A stretch of 64,000 nucleotides of DNA, taken from an uncultured Nocardioides sp. GTDB taxonomy: Bacteria; Actinomycetota; Actinomycetes; Propionibacteriales; Nocardioidaceae. This document shows, piece by piece, positions 20,079 through 62,325 of this stretch. The position numbers and the translations under genes are program-made. The stretch lies in contig NZ_CANLDB010000003.1 in assembly GCF_947489365.1 (NCBI RefSeq), positions 186,001-250,000 of the forward strand, given 5' to 3'. Numbering within the stretch: the stretch's first letter is position 1; the number at the start of each line of letters is the position of its first letter. Under the pieces are notes generated by a model, which was given only the letters and a program-made list of their open reading frames with translations, had not been told where the DNA came from and ran no database searches.

Positions 20079-20115
20079 TCCCGGCCCCGGCTCGGGTCAC
20101 AGGGGCCCCGCCTGC

Positions 20116-20310
20116 CTCGGGTTTCGCGGGTCGGCTGGTGAAACCCCGACTGGGCTGACGAAGTTTCGTCAGCCCGGACGGGGTTTCGTACGCCCGGTCC
20201 GGCGTCGGTCCCACGGGCCCCACCCGTCTCGGGTTTCGCGGGTCGGCTGGTGAAACCCCGACTGGGCTGACGAAGTTTCCCCAGCCAGGTCGGGGTTTCG
20301 TACGCCCGGT
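20116..20310. repeat. Two direct copies of an 83-bp hairpin repeat (period 112 bp)
   Basis: Copies at 20116-20198 and 20228-20310 are nearly identical except for about 15 bp in the middle. Each copy can fold: GAAACCCCGACTGGGCTGAC pairs with a later near-complement ending GGGGTTTC, followed by GTACGCCCGGT. The pair fills the gap between the converging zwf and DUF2332 genes and may act as a bidirectional terminator or be a small interspersed element. Confidence 0.75.
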
Positions 20311-39188: not shown

Positions 39189-40631
39189 GTGTCCTCAGAC
39201 TTCACCCAGCTCGGCGTGCCCGAGACCCTCTCCGCCGTGCTCGCCGAGCGCGGCATCACCAGCCCCACCCCGATCCAGGCCGCGACGCTGCCGGACTCCC
39301 TGGCCGGGCGCGACGTCCTCGGTCGCGGCCGCACCGGCTCCGGCAAGACCTACGCCTTCCTGCTGCCCCTCGTGGCGCGGCTGAGCGCCGAGAGCCGCCG
39401 GACCAAGCCGGGCCGGCCCCGCGCGCTGATCCTGGCCCCGACGCGCGAGCTCGTCGGCCAGATCAAGGAGGCCCTCGACCCGCTGGCGAGGACCGCCGGC
39501 CTCACCACGCAGACCGTCTTCGGCGGCGTGGGCCAGGGCCCGCAGGTCACCGGCCTGAAGCGCGGCGCGGACGTCGTCCTCGCCTGCCCCGGTCGCCTCG
39601 AGGACCTGATGAAGCAGGGCCACGTCTCGCTCGCCGACGTCTCCATCACCGTGCTCGACGAGGCGGACCACATGGCCGACCTCGGGTTCCTGCCCGCCGT
39701 GCGTCGCCTCCTGACGGCCACCGCCCGCGACGGCCAGCGCCTGCTGTTCTCCGCGACGCTCGACAACGCCATCGACGTGCTGGTGCAGAAGTTCCTGCGC
39801 AAGCCCGTCACCCACGAGGCCGACTCCGTGCAGGCCCCGGTCAGCCAGATGAGCCACCACGTGCTCCACCTCGGCAGCCGGGACTCCCGTGTCGACGTGC
39901 TGGCCGACCTCACCTCCGCCCCCGGGCGCACCGTGGTCTTCACCCGCACCAAGCACGGCGCCAAGGGCCTGGCCAAGCAGCTCAACAAGCGCGGCGTCCC
40001 CGCCGTCGAGCTGCACGGCAACCTGTCGCAGGGCGCCCGCACCCGCAACATGGATGCCTTCCACTCCGGCAAGGCCCAGACGCTCGTCGCGACCGACATC
40101 GCCGCCCGCGGCATCCACGTCGACGACGTCGCGCTGGTCATCCACGCCGACCCGCCGGTCGAGCACAAGGCGTACCTCCACCGCTCCGGCCGTACGGCGC
40201 GCGCCGGCGCCGCGGGCACCGTCATCACGCTGATGCTCGACGAGCAGGTCCGCGACGTCCGCGCGCTGACCCGCGCGGCCGGCATCACGCCGACCACGAC
40301 CAAGGTCAACGACGCCCGCCACCCGGTGCTGGCCCAGCTCGCCCCCGGCGCGCGCGAGCTCGTCCACGGCGGCATCACCATCGAGGCCCCGGCGCAGCAG
40401 CGCCGCTCGAACGGCGAGGGCCCCGGCTCCTCCGGTGGCGGCGGCCGCAACCGTCGCCGTGGCGGCGGTGGCACCGGCTCCGGCGGGTCCTCCTCCGGTG
40501 GTGGGCGCAAGCCCGCCGGCCAGGGCTCGGGCGGCGGTCGCTCCGGCGGTCCCCGTCGTCGCTCCGGCGGCGGCGGCTCCGCCTCGGGCGGCTCGCACAG
40601 CCCCGCGTCCTTCAGCTCCGGGCGCCGCTGA
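39189..40631 (+). CDS. DEAD-box ATP-dependent RNA helicase with Gly/Arg/Ser-rich tail
   Basis: 480 residues. Helicase motifs in order: Q-motif (TPIQAATLP), I GRTGSGKTYAF, Ia APTRELVGQ, II DEAD (VLDEADHMADLGF), III SATL, IV VVFTRTKHGAKGLAKQL, V ATDIAARGIHV, VI YLHRSGRTARAG. The C-terminal 75 residues are almost only Gly, Ser, Arg and Pro, an RGG-like unstructured RNA-binding tail. It unwinds structured RNA during ribosome assembly or decay. GTG 39189 has GGAAG about 10 nt upstream, at the end of a long leader; the frame upstream is shadow. Confidence 0.93.
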   Translation: MSSDFTQLGVPETLSAVLAERGITSPTPIQAATLPDSLAGRDVLGRGRTGSGKTYAFLLPLVARLSAESRRTKPGRPRALILAPTRELVGQIKEALDPLARTAGLTTQTVFGGVGQGPQVTGLKRGADVVLACPGRLEDLMKQGHVSLADVSITVLDEADHMADLGFLPAVRRLLTATARDGQRLLFSATLDNAIDVLVQKFLRKPVTHEADSVQAPVSQMSHHVLHLGSRDSRVDVLADLTSAPGRTVVFTRTKHGAKGLAKQLNKRGVPAVELHGNLSQGARTRNMDAFHSGKAQTLVATDIAARGIHVDDVALVIHADPPVEHKAYLHRSGRTARAGAAGTVITLMLDEQVRDVRALTRAAGITPTTTKVNDARHPVLAQLAPGARELVHGGITIEAPAQQRRSNGEGPGSSGGGGRNRRRGGGGTGSGGSSSGGGRKPAGQGSGGGRSGGPRRRSGGGGSASGGSHSPASFSSGRR

Positions 40632-40658
40632 CGTTCCGCACTGCGCCTGCCCGGGCCT

Positions 40659-40664
40659 GATACT
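40659..40664 (+). promoter_or_regulatory. -10 box GATACT of the DUF3995-like gene (leaderless)
   Basis: TGATACT with 6 nt to GTG 40671 and no ribosome site. Confidence 0.45.
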
Positions 40665-40670
40665 GACCCC

Positions 40671-41105
40671 GTGAGGGGCTGGCTGACCGGGCTCGTGGGC
40701 TGGTGCGCGGTGTTCGCCGTGCCGCACCTGTACTGGGCGGCCGGCGGTCGCGCGGGCCTCGGCGCGAGCGCCGCGGACGCCGACGCGGCGTTCGCCACGC
40801 CGTGGTTCGCGGCGTACAACGCCGCCACCGTCGTGCTCTGCCTCGCCGGGATCGGCCTCGGCGTCGTTGACTTGTCGGGCCTGTCCGGCCGCACCCGCCT
40901 CGCGGTGCGGTTCCGGCGCGTCCTGCTGGTCCTCGGCGTCCTGCTCGCCCTCCGCGGCGCGGTCGGCGTCACCGGCCTCGCCCTCGAGGCCGCCACGACC
41001 GGCGGCGTCTCCTCCCCGCCCGTGCTCGTCGCCGTCGAGGGCTGGTTCCTCCTCGGCGCCGTCGTCCTGCTCGGCCTGGCCCGGGCGGGGCGTCGGCCGC
41101 TGTAA
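40671..41105 (+). CDS. DUF3995-like small membrane protein
   Basis: 144 residues with four hydrophobic helices, a layout seen in DUF3995 proteins: LTGLVGWCAVFAVPHLYWAAGG at the N-terminus, an extracellular loop, ATVVLCLAGIGLGVV, then VLLVLGVLLALRGAV and WFLLGAVVLLGLARAG. Function is unknown. The stop codon TAA at 41103-41105 lies within the left arm of the inverted repeat that encloses the neighbouring nuclease-like gene, so the last codons abut that element. Confidence 0.75.
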   Translation: MRGWLTGLVGWCAVFAVPHLYWAAGGRAGLGASAADADAAFATPWFAAYNAATVVLCLAGIGLGVVDLSGLSGRTRLAVRFRRVLLVLGVLLALRGAVGVTGLALEAATTGGVSSPPVLVAVEGWFLLGAVVLLGLARAGRRPL

Positions 41106-41187
41106 CGCGGTGTTACTGCCACTCCAGTTGGCCTGGGCGGGCTGTTGCGCGCCGTACGACCGCGGAAGTGCCAGGAGGCCGCGGTAG
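41101..41187. repeat. Left arm of an 87-bp inverted repeat enclosing the AbiEi/DUF559-like gene
   Basis: Matches the reverse complement of 42296-42382. The outer 72 bp have 7 mismatches by my alignment, and a weaker inner 15 bp has 3 more. The outer end TGTAACGCGGTGTTAC is itself an imperfect palindrome, followed by TGCCACTCCAGT. Confidence 0.85.
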
Positions 41188-41202
41188 ACGGGCTCGGCCG
41201 AC

Positions 41203-42234
41203 TCAGCCGGCCAGCCGGCGCGGCGTCGTACGACGGATGCGCGCGGCCTGCTCGGCCAGGTGCGCGGGCAGCGTCTCCCCGAAGCGGGCGACGGTGACGG
41301 CGTGCTCGGCCGCGATCTGCTCCTTCGCCCGCTCACGGGCGCGGCCGCGGAGGTCGTCGGGCATCACGCGCGACATGCCCAGTCCCACGGAGCAGATGGC
41401 CGCCTGCCGCCGGCGCTCGTCGCGCAGGACGGACCGGGTGGGACGGTCGGCCAGGCCGCCGGCGGCGCGGCCGACGTACTTCGCCAGGCCGTCGACCTCG
41501 ACGAGGTGGCAGCCGACGCGGAGGTCGACCCAGAAGACGTGACCACCGACGGCGACGGGCCAGCCGACGTCGATGTCGGTGAACCCCATCTCGACCAGCA
41601 GCAGCCGACCGAGGGACTCGGCCACGCTCTCGGCGCGGGGATCGCTCAGGGCGAGGGCGTGGCGCACGGTGTGCACGTGCGGCCACGACGACATCAGGTC
41701 GAGCTGGCCGGTCAGCGCCTCCATCGTCACCCCGCGGGACCGGACGTGGTCGACCGCGACCACGCCGGCGTCCAGGCCGTGCTCGCGGGCGACGTCGAGG
41801 GCGGTCCGCGCCGGCGACGTCAGCCGCAGCGGCCGCGCGGAGCGGACGTCGGTCAGGGCCGCGAGGCCCGAGTGGTGCTTGATGCCCGCCTCCGTTCGGG
41901 TGCCGCGCAGGCCGTCCCGGGTCAGGTGCGGCTGCGTGGCGTCGCCCGCGAGCAGCGGGACGGAGAGCCCGCGGGCGGCGGAGTCGTGGCTCATCACGTG
42001 GGGGACCCGGACCACGAGGTGTGCGGCGACGTCCCCGAGCACGAGCCGGTCGGGCCCGCTCGACGCCTCCCACAGCACGCGCTCGACGTACACCCCGGCG
42101 CGCACGACCACCCATGCTCCCCGCGGCCGGGTCAGCTGCCTCAGCTCGCTGTCGCGGTAGCCCGCGTCGTGGCACTGGCGGCGGGTGACCAGGCCGCGCT
42201 GGGTCGCGGCGAGGGCGCGGAGCTCGGGCTTCAT
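41203..42234 (-). CDS. AbiEi-antitoxin-like N-terminus with DUF559/Vsr-like nuclease C-terminus
   Basis: 343 residues. The N-terminal 50 (LAATQRGLVTRRQCHDAGYR...VVVRAGVYV) are a winged-helix of the type IV AbiEi-antitoxin class. The C-terminal 130 resemble the DUF559/very-short-patch-repair endonuclease fold, with the PD-(D/E)xK-like pair in WVDLRVGCHLVEVDGLAKYVG. Such orphan proteins are frequent in actinobacteria and have no known function; no AbiEii toxin partner is adjacent. The gene fills the space between 87-bp inverted repeats, within a convergent gap of two unrelated genes, which suggests a movable or homing-type cassette (inference). ATG 42234 is the only good start. Confidence 0.8.
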   Translation of the reverse strand: MKPELRALAATQRGLVTRRQCHDAGYRDSELRQLTRPRGAWVVVRAGVYVERVLWEASSGPDRLVLGDVAAHLVVRVPHVMSHDSAARGLSVPLLAGDATQPHLTRDGLRGTRTEAGIKHHSGLAALTDVRSARPLRLTSPARTALDVAREHGLDAGVVAVDHVRSRGVTMEALTGQLDLMSSWPHVHTVRHALALSDPRAESVAESLGRLLLVEMGFTDIDVGWPVAVGGHVFWVDLRVGCHLVEVDGLAKYVGRAAGGLADRPTRSVLRDERRRQAAICSVGLGMSRVMPDDLRGRARERAKEQIAAEHAVTVARFGETLPAHLAEQAARIRRTTPRRLAG

Positions 42235-42295
42235 GGCGGAGGTCCTGCCCGGGCGCGGGCCCGGTCACGCCACCGATCCCGGACCCTGTGGACAA

Positions 42296-42382
42296 CTGCC
42301 GCGGTCCCCTGGCACTACCGCGGTCGTACGGCGTCAAACGGCCCGCCCACGCCTACTGGAGTGGCAGTAACACCGCGTTACA
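42296..42382. repeat. Right arm of the inverted repeat enclosing the AbiEi/DUF559-like gene
   Basis: Reverse-complement partner of 41101-41187. The outer end ...GTGGCAGTAACACCGCGTTACA lies 27 bp from the stop of the ABC permease gene. No obvious target-site duplication flanks the two outer ends (GGCCGC on the left, TCGAGC on the right). Confidence 0.85.
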
Positions 42383-42409
42383 TCGAGCGGGGGCCGGGCC
42401 GGGCGGTCG

Positions 42410-43165
42410 TCACAGCGAGGTACGGCGTGCCGAGGCCGCGAGGGCCACGACGGCGAGGACGCAGACGACGAGGAGGTCGGAGGTCCCGTCGCCGAGCCCC
42501 AGCCAGGGGTCGCGGATCGAGTCGGTGACCAGGGACAGCGGCGTCCACTCGCTGATGCTCGACAGGGTCTCGCTCATCGCCTCCGGCGGGGGACCGCCGC
42601 CGCCCAGCAGGAACGACGGCACGAACAGCATCAGCCCGACCGCCTGGGCCGCCCGCGCCGAGGGGAGCAGCGAGCCGAGCAGGGTGCCGAGCGCGAGGAA
42701 GAGCAGCATGCCGGCGCCGACCCCGGCCAGGGTCCGGGGCAGGTCCTCGACCGCGGGGACGCCGTACACCGGCTCCGCGACGAGCAGCAGCGCGCCGATG
42801 CCGAGCAGGCAGGTCACCGCGCCGACCACCAGCTGCGCGGCAGCGAAGGACCAGCGCGGGAACCCGGCGGCGGCGAAGCGCCGCAGCACCCCGCGCTCCC
42901 GGTACGCCGCGAGGTGCACCGGCACCATGACGAGGCCGGTGCTGCCGATGACGGTCGCGAGGTAGGCCGCGACGTACCACTGGCTCGGGTTCACCGGGAA
43001 CACCTCGTCGGGCTCGGTGCCGAACGCCCCGCCGATGATCAGCATCGTCACCACGGGGAAGACGAACACGAACGTCAGCGTCATCGGCTCGCGCAGCAGC
43101 AGCCGCAGCTCGGTGACGACGAGGCGTCGGGTGACCGAGGGGACCCGGGTGGCGGCGGTGCTCAT
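42410..43165 (-). CDS. ABC-2 type transporter permease
   Basis: 251 residues with six predicted helices in the ABC-2 membrane pattern: RLVVTELRLLLREPMTL, VVTMLIIGGAFG, then GLMLFVPSFLLGGGGPPPEAM. It acts with the overlapping ATPase upstream (ATGA at 43162-43165) as an exporter. ATG 43165 starts MSTAATRVPSVTRR. Substrate unknown; drug or lipid exporters of this DrrB-like type are common next to regulators such as the ArsR gene upstream. Confidence 0.87.
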   Translation of the reverse strand: MSTAATRVPSVTRRLVVTELRLLLREPMTLTFVFVFPVVTMLIIGGAFGTEPDEVFPVNPSQWYVAAYLATVIGSTGLVMVPVHLAAYRERGVLRRFAAAGFPRWSFAAAQLVVGAVTCLLGIGALLLVAEPVYGVPAVEDLPRTLAGVGAGMLLFLALGTLLGSLLPSARAAQAVGLMLFVPSFLLGGGGPPPEAMSETLSSISEWTPLSLVTDSIRDPWLGLGDGTSDLLVVCVLAVVALAASARRTSL

Positions 43166-60766: not shown

Positions 60767-62325
60767 CCACCATGCAGGAGCAGCTCGAGGCCCTGGGGGC
60801 CGAGCACGCGAAGGCGGTCGCCGGCGGCGGGGAGAAGTACGTCGCCCGCCACCGCGCCCGCGGCAAGCTCACCGCCCGTGAGCGCATCGAGCTGCTCGTC
60901 GACGAGGGCTCGGCGTTCCTCGAGCTGTCGCCGCTCGCCGGGTGGGGCAGCGACTACACCGTCGGCGCCAGCGTCGTCACCGGCGTCGGCGTCGTCGAGG
61001 GCACCGAGGTGCTCGTCGTCGCCAACGACCCGACCGTCAAGGGCGGCGCGACCAACCCGTACACGCTGAAGAAGCTGCTCCGCGCCCACCAGGTCGCCGA
61101 GCGGAACGGGCTGCCGACCATCTCGCTGGTCGAGTCCGCGGGTGCCGACCTGCCGACCCAGAAGGACATCTTCGTCCCCGGCGGCCAGATCTTCCGCGAC
61201 CTCACCCGCGCCAGTGCCCGCCGCGAGCCGACCGTCGCCGTGGTGTTCGGCAACGCCACCGCCGGCGGCGCCTACGTGCCCGGCATGAGCGACCACACGG
61301 TGATGGTCAAGGGCGCCGCGCAGGTCTTCCTCGGCGGGCCGCCGCTGGTGAAGATGGCCACCGGCGAGGAGGCCGCGGAGGAGTCGCTGGGCGGCGCCGA
61401 GATGCACGCCCGCACCTCCGGACTCGCCGACCACCTCGCCGCCGACGAGCACGACGCGATCCGGATCGCGCGCCGAATCGTCGCCCGCTGGGGCCGCCGC
61501 AAGCCGGTGGCGCCGCCGTCGTACGCCTGGGCCGAGCCGGACGCCGACGCCGAGGAGCTGCTCGACCTCGCCCCCACCGACCTCACCGAGCCGTTCGACC
61601 CCCGCGACGTCGTCGCCCGCGTCTGCGACGGCGTCAGCGCCGAGAACCCGGTCGTCTTCGACGAGTTCAAGCCCCTGTACGGCGCCTCGCTCGTCTGCGG
61701 GTGGGCGCGCCTGCACGGCCGGCCGGTCGGGATCCTCGCCAACGCGCAGGGCGTGCTGTTCAGCGAGGAGGCGCAGAAGGCGACGCAGTTCGTGCAGCTC
61801 GCGAACGCCTCCGGCACGCCGCTGCTGTTCTGGCACCACACCACCGGCTTCATGGTCGGCACCGACTACGAGCAGGGCGGGATCGTCAAGCACGGCGCGA
61901 TGATGATCAACGCCATCTCCAACTCGACGGTGCCGCACCTGACCGTGCTCATGGGGGCGTCGTACGGCGCGGGCAACTACGCTATGAACGGTCGCGCCTA
62001 CGACCCCCGCTTCCTCTTCGCGTGGCCCAACGCGAAGTCCGCGGTGATGGGCCCCAAGCAGCTCGCCGGGGTGCTGTCGATCGTGTCCCGCGCCGCCGCC
62101 GAGGCCAAGGGCGCGCCGTACGACGAGGAGGGCGACGCCGGCATGCGCGCGATGGTCGAGCAGATGGTGGAGGAGCAGAGCCTGCCCTTCGTCCTCTCAG
62201 GGCTGCTGTACGACGACGGGGTGATCGACCCGCGCGACACCCGCACGGTGCTCGGCATCGCGCTGTCGGTTGTCGAGAACCGCGCCTGGACCGGCGCCAC
62301 GACGTACGGGGTGTTCAGGCCGTGA
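60763..62325 (+). CDS. Acyl-CoA carboxylase, carboxyltransferase beta subunit
   Basis: 520 residues, AccD/MccB type. It accepts carboxybiotin and an enoyl- or acyl-CoA. Crotonase-fold halves show LVESAGADLPTQKDIF with GNATAGGAYVPGMSDHTVMVKG (N half) and FWHHTTGFMVGTDYEQGGI with GASYGAGNYAMNGRAYDPRF (C half). This matches methylcrotonyl/geranyl-CoA carboxylase-type subunits rather than acetyl-CoA ones. ATG 60763 overlaps the dehydrogenase stop and has GGAGGAG 6-7 nt upstream. Confidence 0.9.
   Translation: MTTMQEQLEALGAEHAKAVAGGGEKYVARHRARGKLTARERIELLVDEGSAFLELSPLAGWGSDYTVGASVVTGVGVVEGTEVLVVANDPTVKGGATNPYTLKKLLRAHQVAERNGLPTISLVESAGADLPTQKDIFVPGGQIFRDLTRASARREPTVAVVFGNATAGGAYVPGMSDHTVMVKGAAQVFLGGPPLVKMATGEEAAEESLGGAEMHARTSGLADHLAADEHDAIRIARRIVARWGRRKPVAPPSYAWAEPDADAEELLDLAPTDLTEPFDPRDVVARVCDGVSAENPVVFDEFKPLYGASLVCGWARLHGRPVGILANAQGVLFSEEAQKATQFVQLANASGTPLLFWHHTTGFMVGTDYEQGGIVKHGAMMINAISNSTVPHLTVLMGASYGAGNYAMNGRAYDPRFLFAWPNAKSAVMGPKQLAGVLSIVSRAAAEAKGAPYDEEGDAGMRAMVEQMVEEQSLPFVLSGLLYDDGVIDPRDTRTVLGIALSVVENRAWTGATTYGVFRP

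Follow-up and report, generated by a model that had tools for sequence, protein, structure and literature searches.

The closest described counterpart of the arrangement reported here are the REPIN/RAYT systems, in which repetitive extragenic palindromic (REP) sequences of 20-40 bp, or REPINs as defined in PMC3116915, are linked to the gene of a REP-associated tyrosine transposase (RAYT) of the Y1/HUH type. According to the accounts in PMC3116915 and PMC3733652, such palindromes are intergenic and dispersed, the enzyme gene is flanked by its own repeat type (REPtrons, TIRtrons), and one genome can hold several repeat groups with specific enzymes. GTAG repeats are paired with RAYTs, and CGTC repeats seem, as described in PMC3733652, to be without a dedicated enzyme. 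Two further proteins are of relevance: the endonuclease I-Bth0305I, reported to dimerise on a target of nearly 60 bp (PMC3943268), and the type IV antitoxin AbiEi, reported to autoregulate via inverted repeats in its promoter (PMC7319586). Here, we analyzed a stretch of 64,000 nucleotides from an uncultured Nocardioides sp. (contig NZ_CANLDB010000003.1, positions 186,001 to 250,000 of the forward strand), hereafter called the window, in which two inverted copies of a repeat of about 90 bp enclose the gene of a 343-amino-acid protein. This protein is predicted to be an AbiEi-like part fused to a nuclease resembling Vsr and I-Bth0305I. Most tested genes of this protein family are flanked by matching repeats, and this arrangement suggests an enzyme-and-repeat partnership that has not been reported before. 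We consider it moderately probable that the protein is a DNA-binding nuclease which recognises its flanking repeat, so that an unrelated nuclease would take the part of the RAYT in a REPIN/RAYT-like partnership. A literature search, mostly outside subscription papers, gave no description of AbiEi-type or DUF559-type genes with such repeats.

Repeats flanking the AbiEi-like genes

The gene in question (41203..42234 of the window, read on the minus strand from 42234 to 41203) is the one likely coding gene between the two repeat copies. The left copy, c1, lies at 41101..41191 on the plus strand (TGTAACGCGGTGTTACTGCCACT... GGCCGCGGTAGA), while the right copy, c2, is the same repeat inverted, at 42296..42382 on the minus strand and thus on the promoter side of the nuclease gene. 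The motif TGTAAC opens the homologous part of both arms (at 41101 and 42382), their outer 72 bp hold seven mismatches, and the inverted pair as a whole covers 41079-41187 and 42296-42404 (109 nt, 83% complementary). The initial annotation of the locus, which had described inverted arms around a single gene, was confirmed in this respect.

Homologues at E<=1e-40 were found in 123 of 215 genomes of the genus. When about 700 bp from each side of the gene were compared with one another, in direct or inverted orientation, the flanks of 27 of the 29 best genus homologues matched at E<=1e-6 (25 at 1e-8, 20 at 1e-15), compared to one of 302 overlapping control windows at 1e-6 and none at 1e-8. In a second set of 74 named loci (L189-L262), which shares genomes with the first (L091-L119), stems nearly entirely from Nocardioides and includes four loci with short flanks (L220, L250, L255 and L260), a flank match was obtained in 62 cases at 1e-8 and in 54 at 1e-15, and in none of 325 control windows, which overlap one another, at 1e-6. 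By the same comparison, and against the same two control sets of equal window size, the flanks of the window gene match at E=4e-30. The arrangement is seen in Corynebacterium pilosum as well, where the gene of a 328-amino-acid relative, 31% identical over residues 118-295, lies between two palindromes of about 95 bp that differ in sequence. Repeat flanking is thus a general property of this protein family. The initial annotation had proposed to test whether paralogous genes are flanked by the same arms; paralogous and homologous genes were found with matching repeats on both sides.

The genome of the window encodes five paralogues of the protein. Four of them have flanking repeats, each of its own type and different from that of the window gene. 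Searched in the genome as one joined query, with their own loci included, these repeats gave 56 matches in 25 regions (L034), 24 in 10 (L033), 6 in 3 (L035) and 2 in 2 (L036), and the first three are dispersed. Unlike repeats at different paralogues of one genome also occur in N. oceani (L193 and L258) and N. lijunqiniae (L231 and L239). Thus, the repeats go with the gene and not only with the species. The repeat of L034 (G000:C9:14163; CGAGTCGGCACGTCTGCGCA) is clustered and more abundant than that of the window gene. Two copies of the L033-type repeat (L033 = C4:139435; GGTTTCACGGG...) are found in the window itself, at 20115-20189 and 20228-20301, so that the window holds a second repeat family, which has an AbiEi-like gene of its own.

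To the window gene we added those 59 of the 74 named loci whose match spanned 800 bases or more without a stop and whose flanks matched at 1e-6, and assigned the repeats of these 60 loci to classes by a mechanical rule. Forty-seven have a TGTAAC end, five are of the GAGCGG type, one is TTACTGACCG and seven are others, with at least the assignment of L219 resting on an inner match. Placed on the protein tree, the repeat class requires 21 changes, compared to 31-39 in 300 shuffles. The initial annotation, which had considered a link between protein and repeat, is supported in two points, the matching repeats at paralogues and homologues and a repeat class that tracks the protein tree.

A predicted fusion of AbiEi-like and Vsr-like parts

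Profile searches recognised one half of the protein. Pfam matched the window protein with AbiEi_4 alone, under its cut-off. In the set of 30 members, formed by the window protein and 29 aligned homologues, AbiEi_4 was matched in 27 at 0.01, no other Pfam family was matched in any, and the PADLOC AbiEi profile PDLC02228 matched all 30. NCBIfam gave one unrelated weak match in one of the 30 members, while a search of Protein Data Bank chains with a sequence profile gave no match at 0.1. The DUF559 label, under which the nuclease half had been annotated before, has no profile match behind it, and this half is known by its predicted fold.

The AlphaFold2 model, built on the 30-homologue alignment, has a mean predicted local distance difference test score of 91.6. 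By VIA-align, its residues 1-198 (41641..42234, minus strand) resemble the AbiEi antitoxin of S. agalactiae (6y8q; Z 11.1, root-mean-square deviation 5.6, 169 residues aligned) and Rv2827c (1zel; Z 8.8). Residues 203-316 (41287..41628, minus strand) resemble the catalytic domain of I-Bth0305I (3r3p; Z 11.1, root-mean-square deviation 2.5, 96 of 97 residues), followed by 3hrl (Z 9.7) and Vsr (1cw0; Z 9.0). Foldseek by itself also gave 3r3p as top match, but at E=0.014. Four residues of the nuclease-like domain (E206, D237, E246 and K252) are invariant in all 30 aligned members and, by analogy to Vsr/EDxHD-type enzymes, are candidates for its active site. Taken alone, residues 62-198 resemble nucleotidyltransferase folds as well (MenT1, 8an4, Z 9.6 at 2% identity; 2ewr, Z 7.6).

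AbiEi binds inverted repeats (PMC7319586), and the target of I-Bth0305I, at nearly 60 bp, is near the repeat length observed here (PMC3943268). Both properties would be in line with a protein adapted to inverted repeats of such length. However, the window gene differs from EDxHD homing endonucleases, as it was not seen within an intron or an interrupted allele, and as the repeats persist on both sides of it and genome-wide rather than being replaced by the gene. An orthologous site without the gene, described below, keeps both repeat copies, and no uninterrupted single-site allele was found among our comparisons. From type IV AbiEi proteins it differs by the additional nuclease-like domain, by its flanking and dispersed repeats and, as far as the neighbours in the window are concerned, by the lack of a recognisable adjacent toxin gene such as AbiEii (DUF1814).

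One might alternatively suspect a self/non-self or defence function, in which the nuclease attacks incoming DNA while the chromosomal repeats serve as decoys, immunity marks or regulators. The PADLOC profile and the nuclease-like predicted fold speak in favor of this idea. Nevertheless, the neighbours of the window gene are DUF3995-like and permease genes with no recognisable toxin among them, matches to mobile DNA amounted to a weak one to a plasmid and none to a phage, and both the position of the copies behind genes and their likeness within a genome would be left unexplained. We regard a role in defence as very unlikely.

Dispersed copies and their neighbouring genes

In the genome of the window, the two arms are 2 of 14 near-complete copies, to which one partial copy has to be added, located on 6 of 20 contigs (C1, C3, C4, C5, C11 and C16). 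A search with a repeat model separated them clearly from the background, with a gap between the 15th match (E=7e-7) and the 16th (0.18). The typical copy starts with TGTAACGCGGTGTTAC...GCCACT and carries at its end a GACCGCGGTAGA-like motif, either singly or as a pair with a distance of often 19 bp; many copies have GGTAGA at one end. With the same model, 41 of the 209 genus genomes gave matches at 0.01, and besides the own genome only G171 and G195 gave matches below 1e-6. The exact pattern of the repeat end had no match in a contig collection, which possibly excludes the own genome.

In 12 of the 14 copies, the start follows the stop codon of a same-strand gene, with neighbour genes called by codon-position G+C instead of annotation and with rival frames at some sites (C3:327911, C3:352017). 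Eleven of these 12 start between 62 bp past the stop and a 4-bp overlap, two having the stop codon within the repeat, and one starts 388 bp past it; the remaining two copies are C3:61551 and C5:259494. Around the latter (L054, about G000:C5:259293-259581), a partial and a full copy are found together with repeats of another kind (GGTCGAGCAGCACGCG...), and no gene was called over a long stretch there. The locus of the window follows the common rule on both sides. The DUF3995-like gene (40671..41105, plus strand, named by a profile match) has its stop codon at 41105 inside c1, and the ABC permease gene (42410..43165, minus strand, named from sequence with no profile run) ends at 42410, 27 bp past c2, just as had been annotated; both genes stand outside the proposed system. 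From the own-genome data alone, i.e., from copies behind genes, a cassette would be an accident of two converging neighbours. The corresponding explanation, that two repeats each trail their own gene and enclose the AbiEi-like gene by chance, fits the own genome and was rejected on the flank tests of the homologues.

In many relatives, the flanking repeats are near-perfect palindromes of 70-72 bp (TGTAAC...GTTACA). At L115 (= locus L205, N. speluncae), for example, CATGTAACGCGCAGTTAGGCCCACTG... and its reverse complement stand on both sides of the gene. Units of the pattern TGTAACNCG...CGNGTTACA were found in 68 of 209 genus genomes, from one to at least 25 per genome, while the reversed pattern, used as control, gave none; the asymmetric copies of the own genome do not fit this pattern. 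We collected 107 palindromes from the fetched loci (L091 onwards), gene-flanking ones included. Of these, 104 are 70-72 bp long, and their arms beyond the outer 12 bases are complementary at 0.71, compared to 0.26 after shuffling. While 51 lack a neighbour call on at least one side, the other 56 lie between convergent (33), tandem (19) or divergent (4) genes, again called by codon-position G+C, and the median distance from palindrome to stop codon in the relatives is 26.5 bp.

In 53 of the 107 palindromes, the dinucleotides adjoining TGTAAC...GTTACA on either side are complementary (CA/TG, CT/AG, GC/GC, CG/CG; shuffled mean 20.2, maximum 32), which could mean that the outer ends vary or that 4-bp palindromes served as insertion sites. 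Insertion into terminator stems was tried as an explanation and rejected: at outer positions 3-4, complementarity was found in 17 cases (shuffled 10.6, maximum 20), so that the signal past 2 bp is too weak for a target rule.

Given their position close behind stop codons, the repeats might be ordinary terminator-like hairpins that stand next to these genes by chance, and the short median distance in the relatives would agree with this. However, paired repeats of such strength are nearly absent around the control windows, it is the sequence and not the shape alone that is conserved, 12 of 13 own copies fold no better than expected, and Rfam gave no match in 40600-42900. The terminator explanation is thus highly improbable, and the last two results also led us to reject a reading of the arms as an RNA element.

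Operators are a further alternative. Here, the protein would be a regulator that binds the repeats at its own gene and at target genes, with the nuclease-like domain otherwise used or inactive. The autoregulation of the AbiEi antitoxin (PMC7319586) is a precedent, and c2, one of the flanking copies, does lie on the promoter side of the gene. On the other hand, the repeats are mostly found behind genes, in the own genome as well as in the relatives, which weakens this explanation. In addition, a unit of 70-72 bp on both sides of a gene is long for an operator, and the four putative active-site residues are invariant in all 30 members. We consider a purely regulatory role unlikely.

Since the repeats are palindromic, intergenic, dispersed and gene-flanking, as are those described in PMC3116915 and PMC3733652, they could also be classical REP or REPIN elements moved by a RAYT encoded elsewhere in the genome. 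Yet 208 of 209 genus genomes had no match to the Y1/HUH transposase family PF01797, the sole match came from a genome of 86% completeness and 5% contamination, and five of 14 control genomes gave a match in the same search. Within the reach of the PF01797 profile, a RAYT as mover is excluded, and this explanation is extremely improbable. Because the search for the transposase that defines them was negative, we did not assign the repeats to the REPIN/RAYT systems. Besides the AbiEi-like and Vsr/EDxHD-like predicted folds in place of a Y1/HUH transposase, they differ from these systems in the length of the unit (about 70-90 bp). As for the GTAG tag, the palindromes of the relatives end with TGTAAC...GTTACA, whereas many own copies have GGTAGA at one end. 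The likeness lies in the dispersed intergenic position, the enzyme gene flanked by its own repeat type and the several repeat groups with specific enzymes per genome, while palindromy is weak in the copies of the own genome and of G171.

Comparison with relatives and the proposed partnership

Genome G171 contains the nearest homologue, 60-61% identical to the window protein. The genes that border this homologue and its two repeats in G171 enclose, in the genome of the window, nothing but two inverted repeat copies (C3:61412-61499 and 61551-61649). The interval measures 1337 bp in G171 vs. 195 bp here, and the sequences to its left and right are 83-88% identical. Between the bare arms lies a spacer with some resemblance to the region 5' of the gene in G171 (score 38, at most 34 in 300 shuffles), a weak hint of gene loss from the bare-armed site. 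Conversely, the site of the window gene holds in G171 one repeat, a response regulator gene and a kinase gene (both named from sequence), and no AbiEi-nuclease gene. The interval between helicase and ABC permease (L283 vs. L090) is thus a variable gap in conserved synteny, with a two-component pair in G171 and the DUF3995-like and AbiEi-like genes here. Thus, the gene is placed differently in the two genomes, either because it has moved or because different paralogues have been lost.

Mobile insertion cassettes and miniature inverted-repeat transposable elements (MITEs) have short inverted-repeat ends, are dispersed and can hold a passenger gene between their ends. The locus of the window shares these features, and the initial annotation had read it as a possible mobile cassette, in which gene and arms move as a unit. 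The different gene positions in the two genomes, the bare-armed site and, weakly, the spacer between its arms are in line with this part of the proposal, and so is the absence of the gene from the window gene's site in G171. However, the gene stands in one alignable place in 11 of 11 distinct close-relative pairs, selected by hand. That the arm might recur without a linked gene had been named as an observation that would refute a cassette, and this was found: the 12 other near-complete copies have no AbiEi-nuclease gene alongside, which weakens the cassette explanation. Moreover, the own and the G171 protein are so dissimilar that differential paralogue loss explains the two gene places equally well. 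In contrast to MITEs and insertion cassettes, each type of repeat is associated with the gene it encloses. Inspection by eye revealed no target-site duplication around the c1/c2 pair, in agreement with the initial annotation, and no transposase marks the unit as a transposon; one with matching ends did not come up, although the genome was not surveyed in full for transposases. We therefore regard a single-gene cassette as quite unlikely. Rather than the ends of a cassette moving in one piece, the arms are better understood as dispersed repeats cognate to the protein.

At six sites, the bare arms counted, repeat copies occupy orthologous positions in both genomes. The flanks of these sites are 79-92% identical where alignable (on both sides at three, on one side or nearly so at three), while the repeats themselves are 51-59% identical. 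This is close to the between-genome mean of all pairs (0.52), whereas copies within a genome have mean identities of 0.67 (window's genome) and 0.72 (G171). The repeats at orthologous sites are thus genome-specific, a mark of either concerted evolution or repeated insertion at favoured sites. None of the six other G171 copies coincided with a repeat copy in the 12 stretches of the own genome that were compared. The arms c1 and c2 are the most similar of 91 own-genome copy pairs (0.85); a rule by which gene-flanking copies are the most alike was rejected, as it holds here (rank 1 of 91) and fails in G171 (rank 62 of 66). Single palindromes vary in presence between syntenic species, as seen for a dispersed one in N. 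carbamazepini (L235 vs. L233) and for the palindrome right of the gene in L213, L216, L218 and L206 vs. L223. Furthermore, 57 of the 68 palindrome-bearing genomes have a homologue at E<=1e-40, with the Fisher value of this co-occurrence being approximate since the gene list stems from 215 and the palindrome list from 209 genomes.

If the protein is indeed a nuclease that recognises its flanking repeat, the most economical scenario, analogous to RAYT and REPIN, would be the following. Binding of the inverted-repeat ends would fall to the AbiEi-like half, and nicking or cutting at the repeat to the Vsr/EDxHD-like half. Repair of the break from another copy would then place new copies behind genes and overwrite old ones, such that the repeats of a genome stay alike. 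The gene with its two flanking copies would be the source unit, and the scattered copies would be its passengers. We infer these steps, i.e., binding and cutting of the repeat by the protein as well as spread and convergence driven by repair, from what was observed: flanking across the family, dispersal, repeats specific to each paralogue, predicted folds, invariant residues, and genome-specific repeats at orthologous sites.

Several observations weigh against this reading. First, flanking is not universal. Paralogue L032 has no flank repeat, 12 of the 74 named loci miss 1e-8, and six of these, one of them short-flanked, show no match even at 1e-2; in two of these six, L223 and L226, just one side of the gene retains a palindrome. 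At a looser threshold of 1e-4, the controls also match, with 17 direct and 6 inverted matches in the 302 control windows and 13 of the 325 windows matching. Second, gene and repeat do not always go together. The repeat of L036 is hardly dispersed, 66 gene-bearing genomes lack the palindrome pattern, and 11 of the 68 palindrome-bearing genomes are without a homologue at E<=1e-40 (G018, G042, G047, G058, G064, G085, G104, G125, G155, G178 and G195). These 11 may have lost the gene, have a homologue that is more distant, or use a different enzyme. Third, the patterns permit other causes. The agreement of repeat class and protein tree could be explained by common descent alone, insertion into the same favoured sites could equally give the pattern at orthologous sites, and the gene-flanking copies of G171 are among the least alike. 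Finally, the copies of the own genome and of G171 show little palindromy (self-inverse z mean 0.45 and 0.73, respectively), the only own copy to stand out in folding reached z -2.02, and a target-site duplication was not visible at L235/L233 either, leaving none at the two sites looked at.

Taken together, we favor the repeat-recognising nuclease for this family and tentatively put forward a wider version of it: there is a fair chance that in Actinobacteria a fused AbiEi / Vsr-like nuclease drives cognate palindromes by cut-and-convert, so that homogenised repeat populations, one for each paralogue, arise as a homing-type counterpart of REPIN/RAYT. Since the family matches AbiEi antitoxin profiles, its members could pass for orphan antitoxins. 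If the proposed partnership is true, a common gene family of Nocardioides would gain a function, and the origin of many intergenic palindromes in this genus would be explained. Whether REPIN-like repeats need an HUH transposase would become testable, and dozens of natural pairs of repeat and enzyme would form a set for studying the evolution of specificity.

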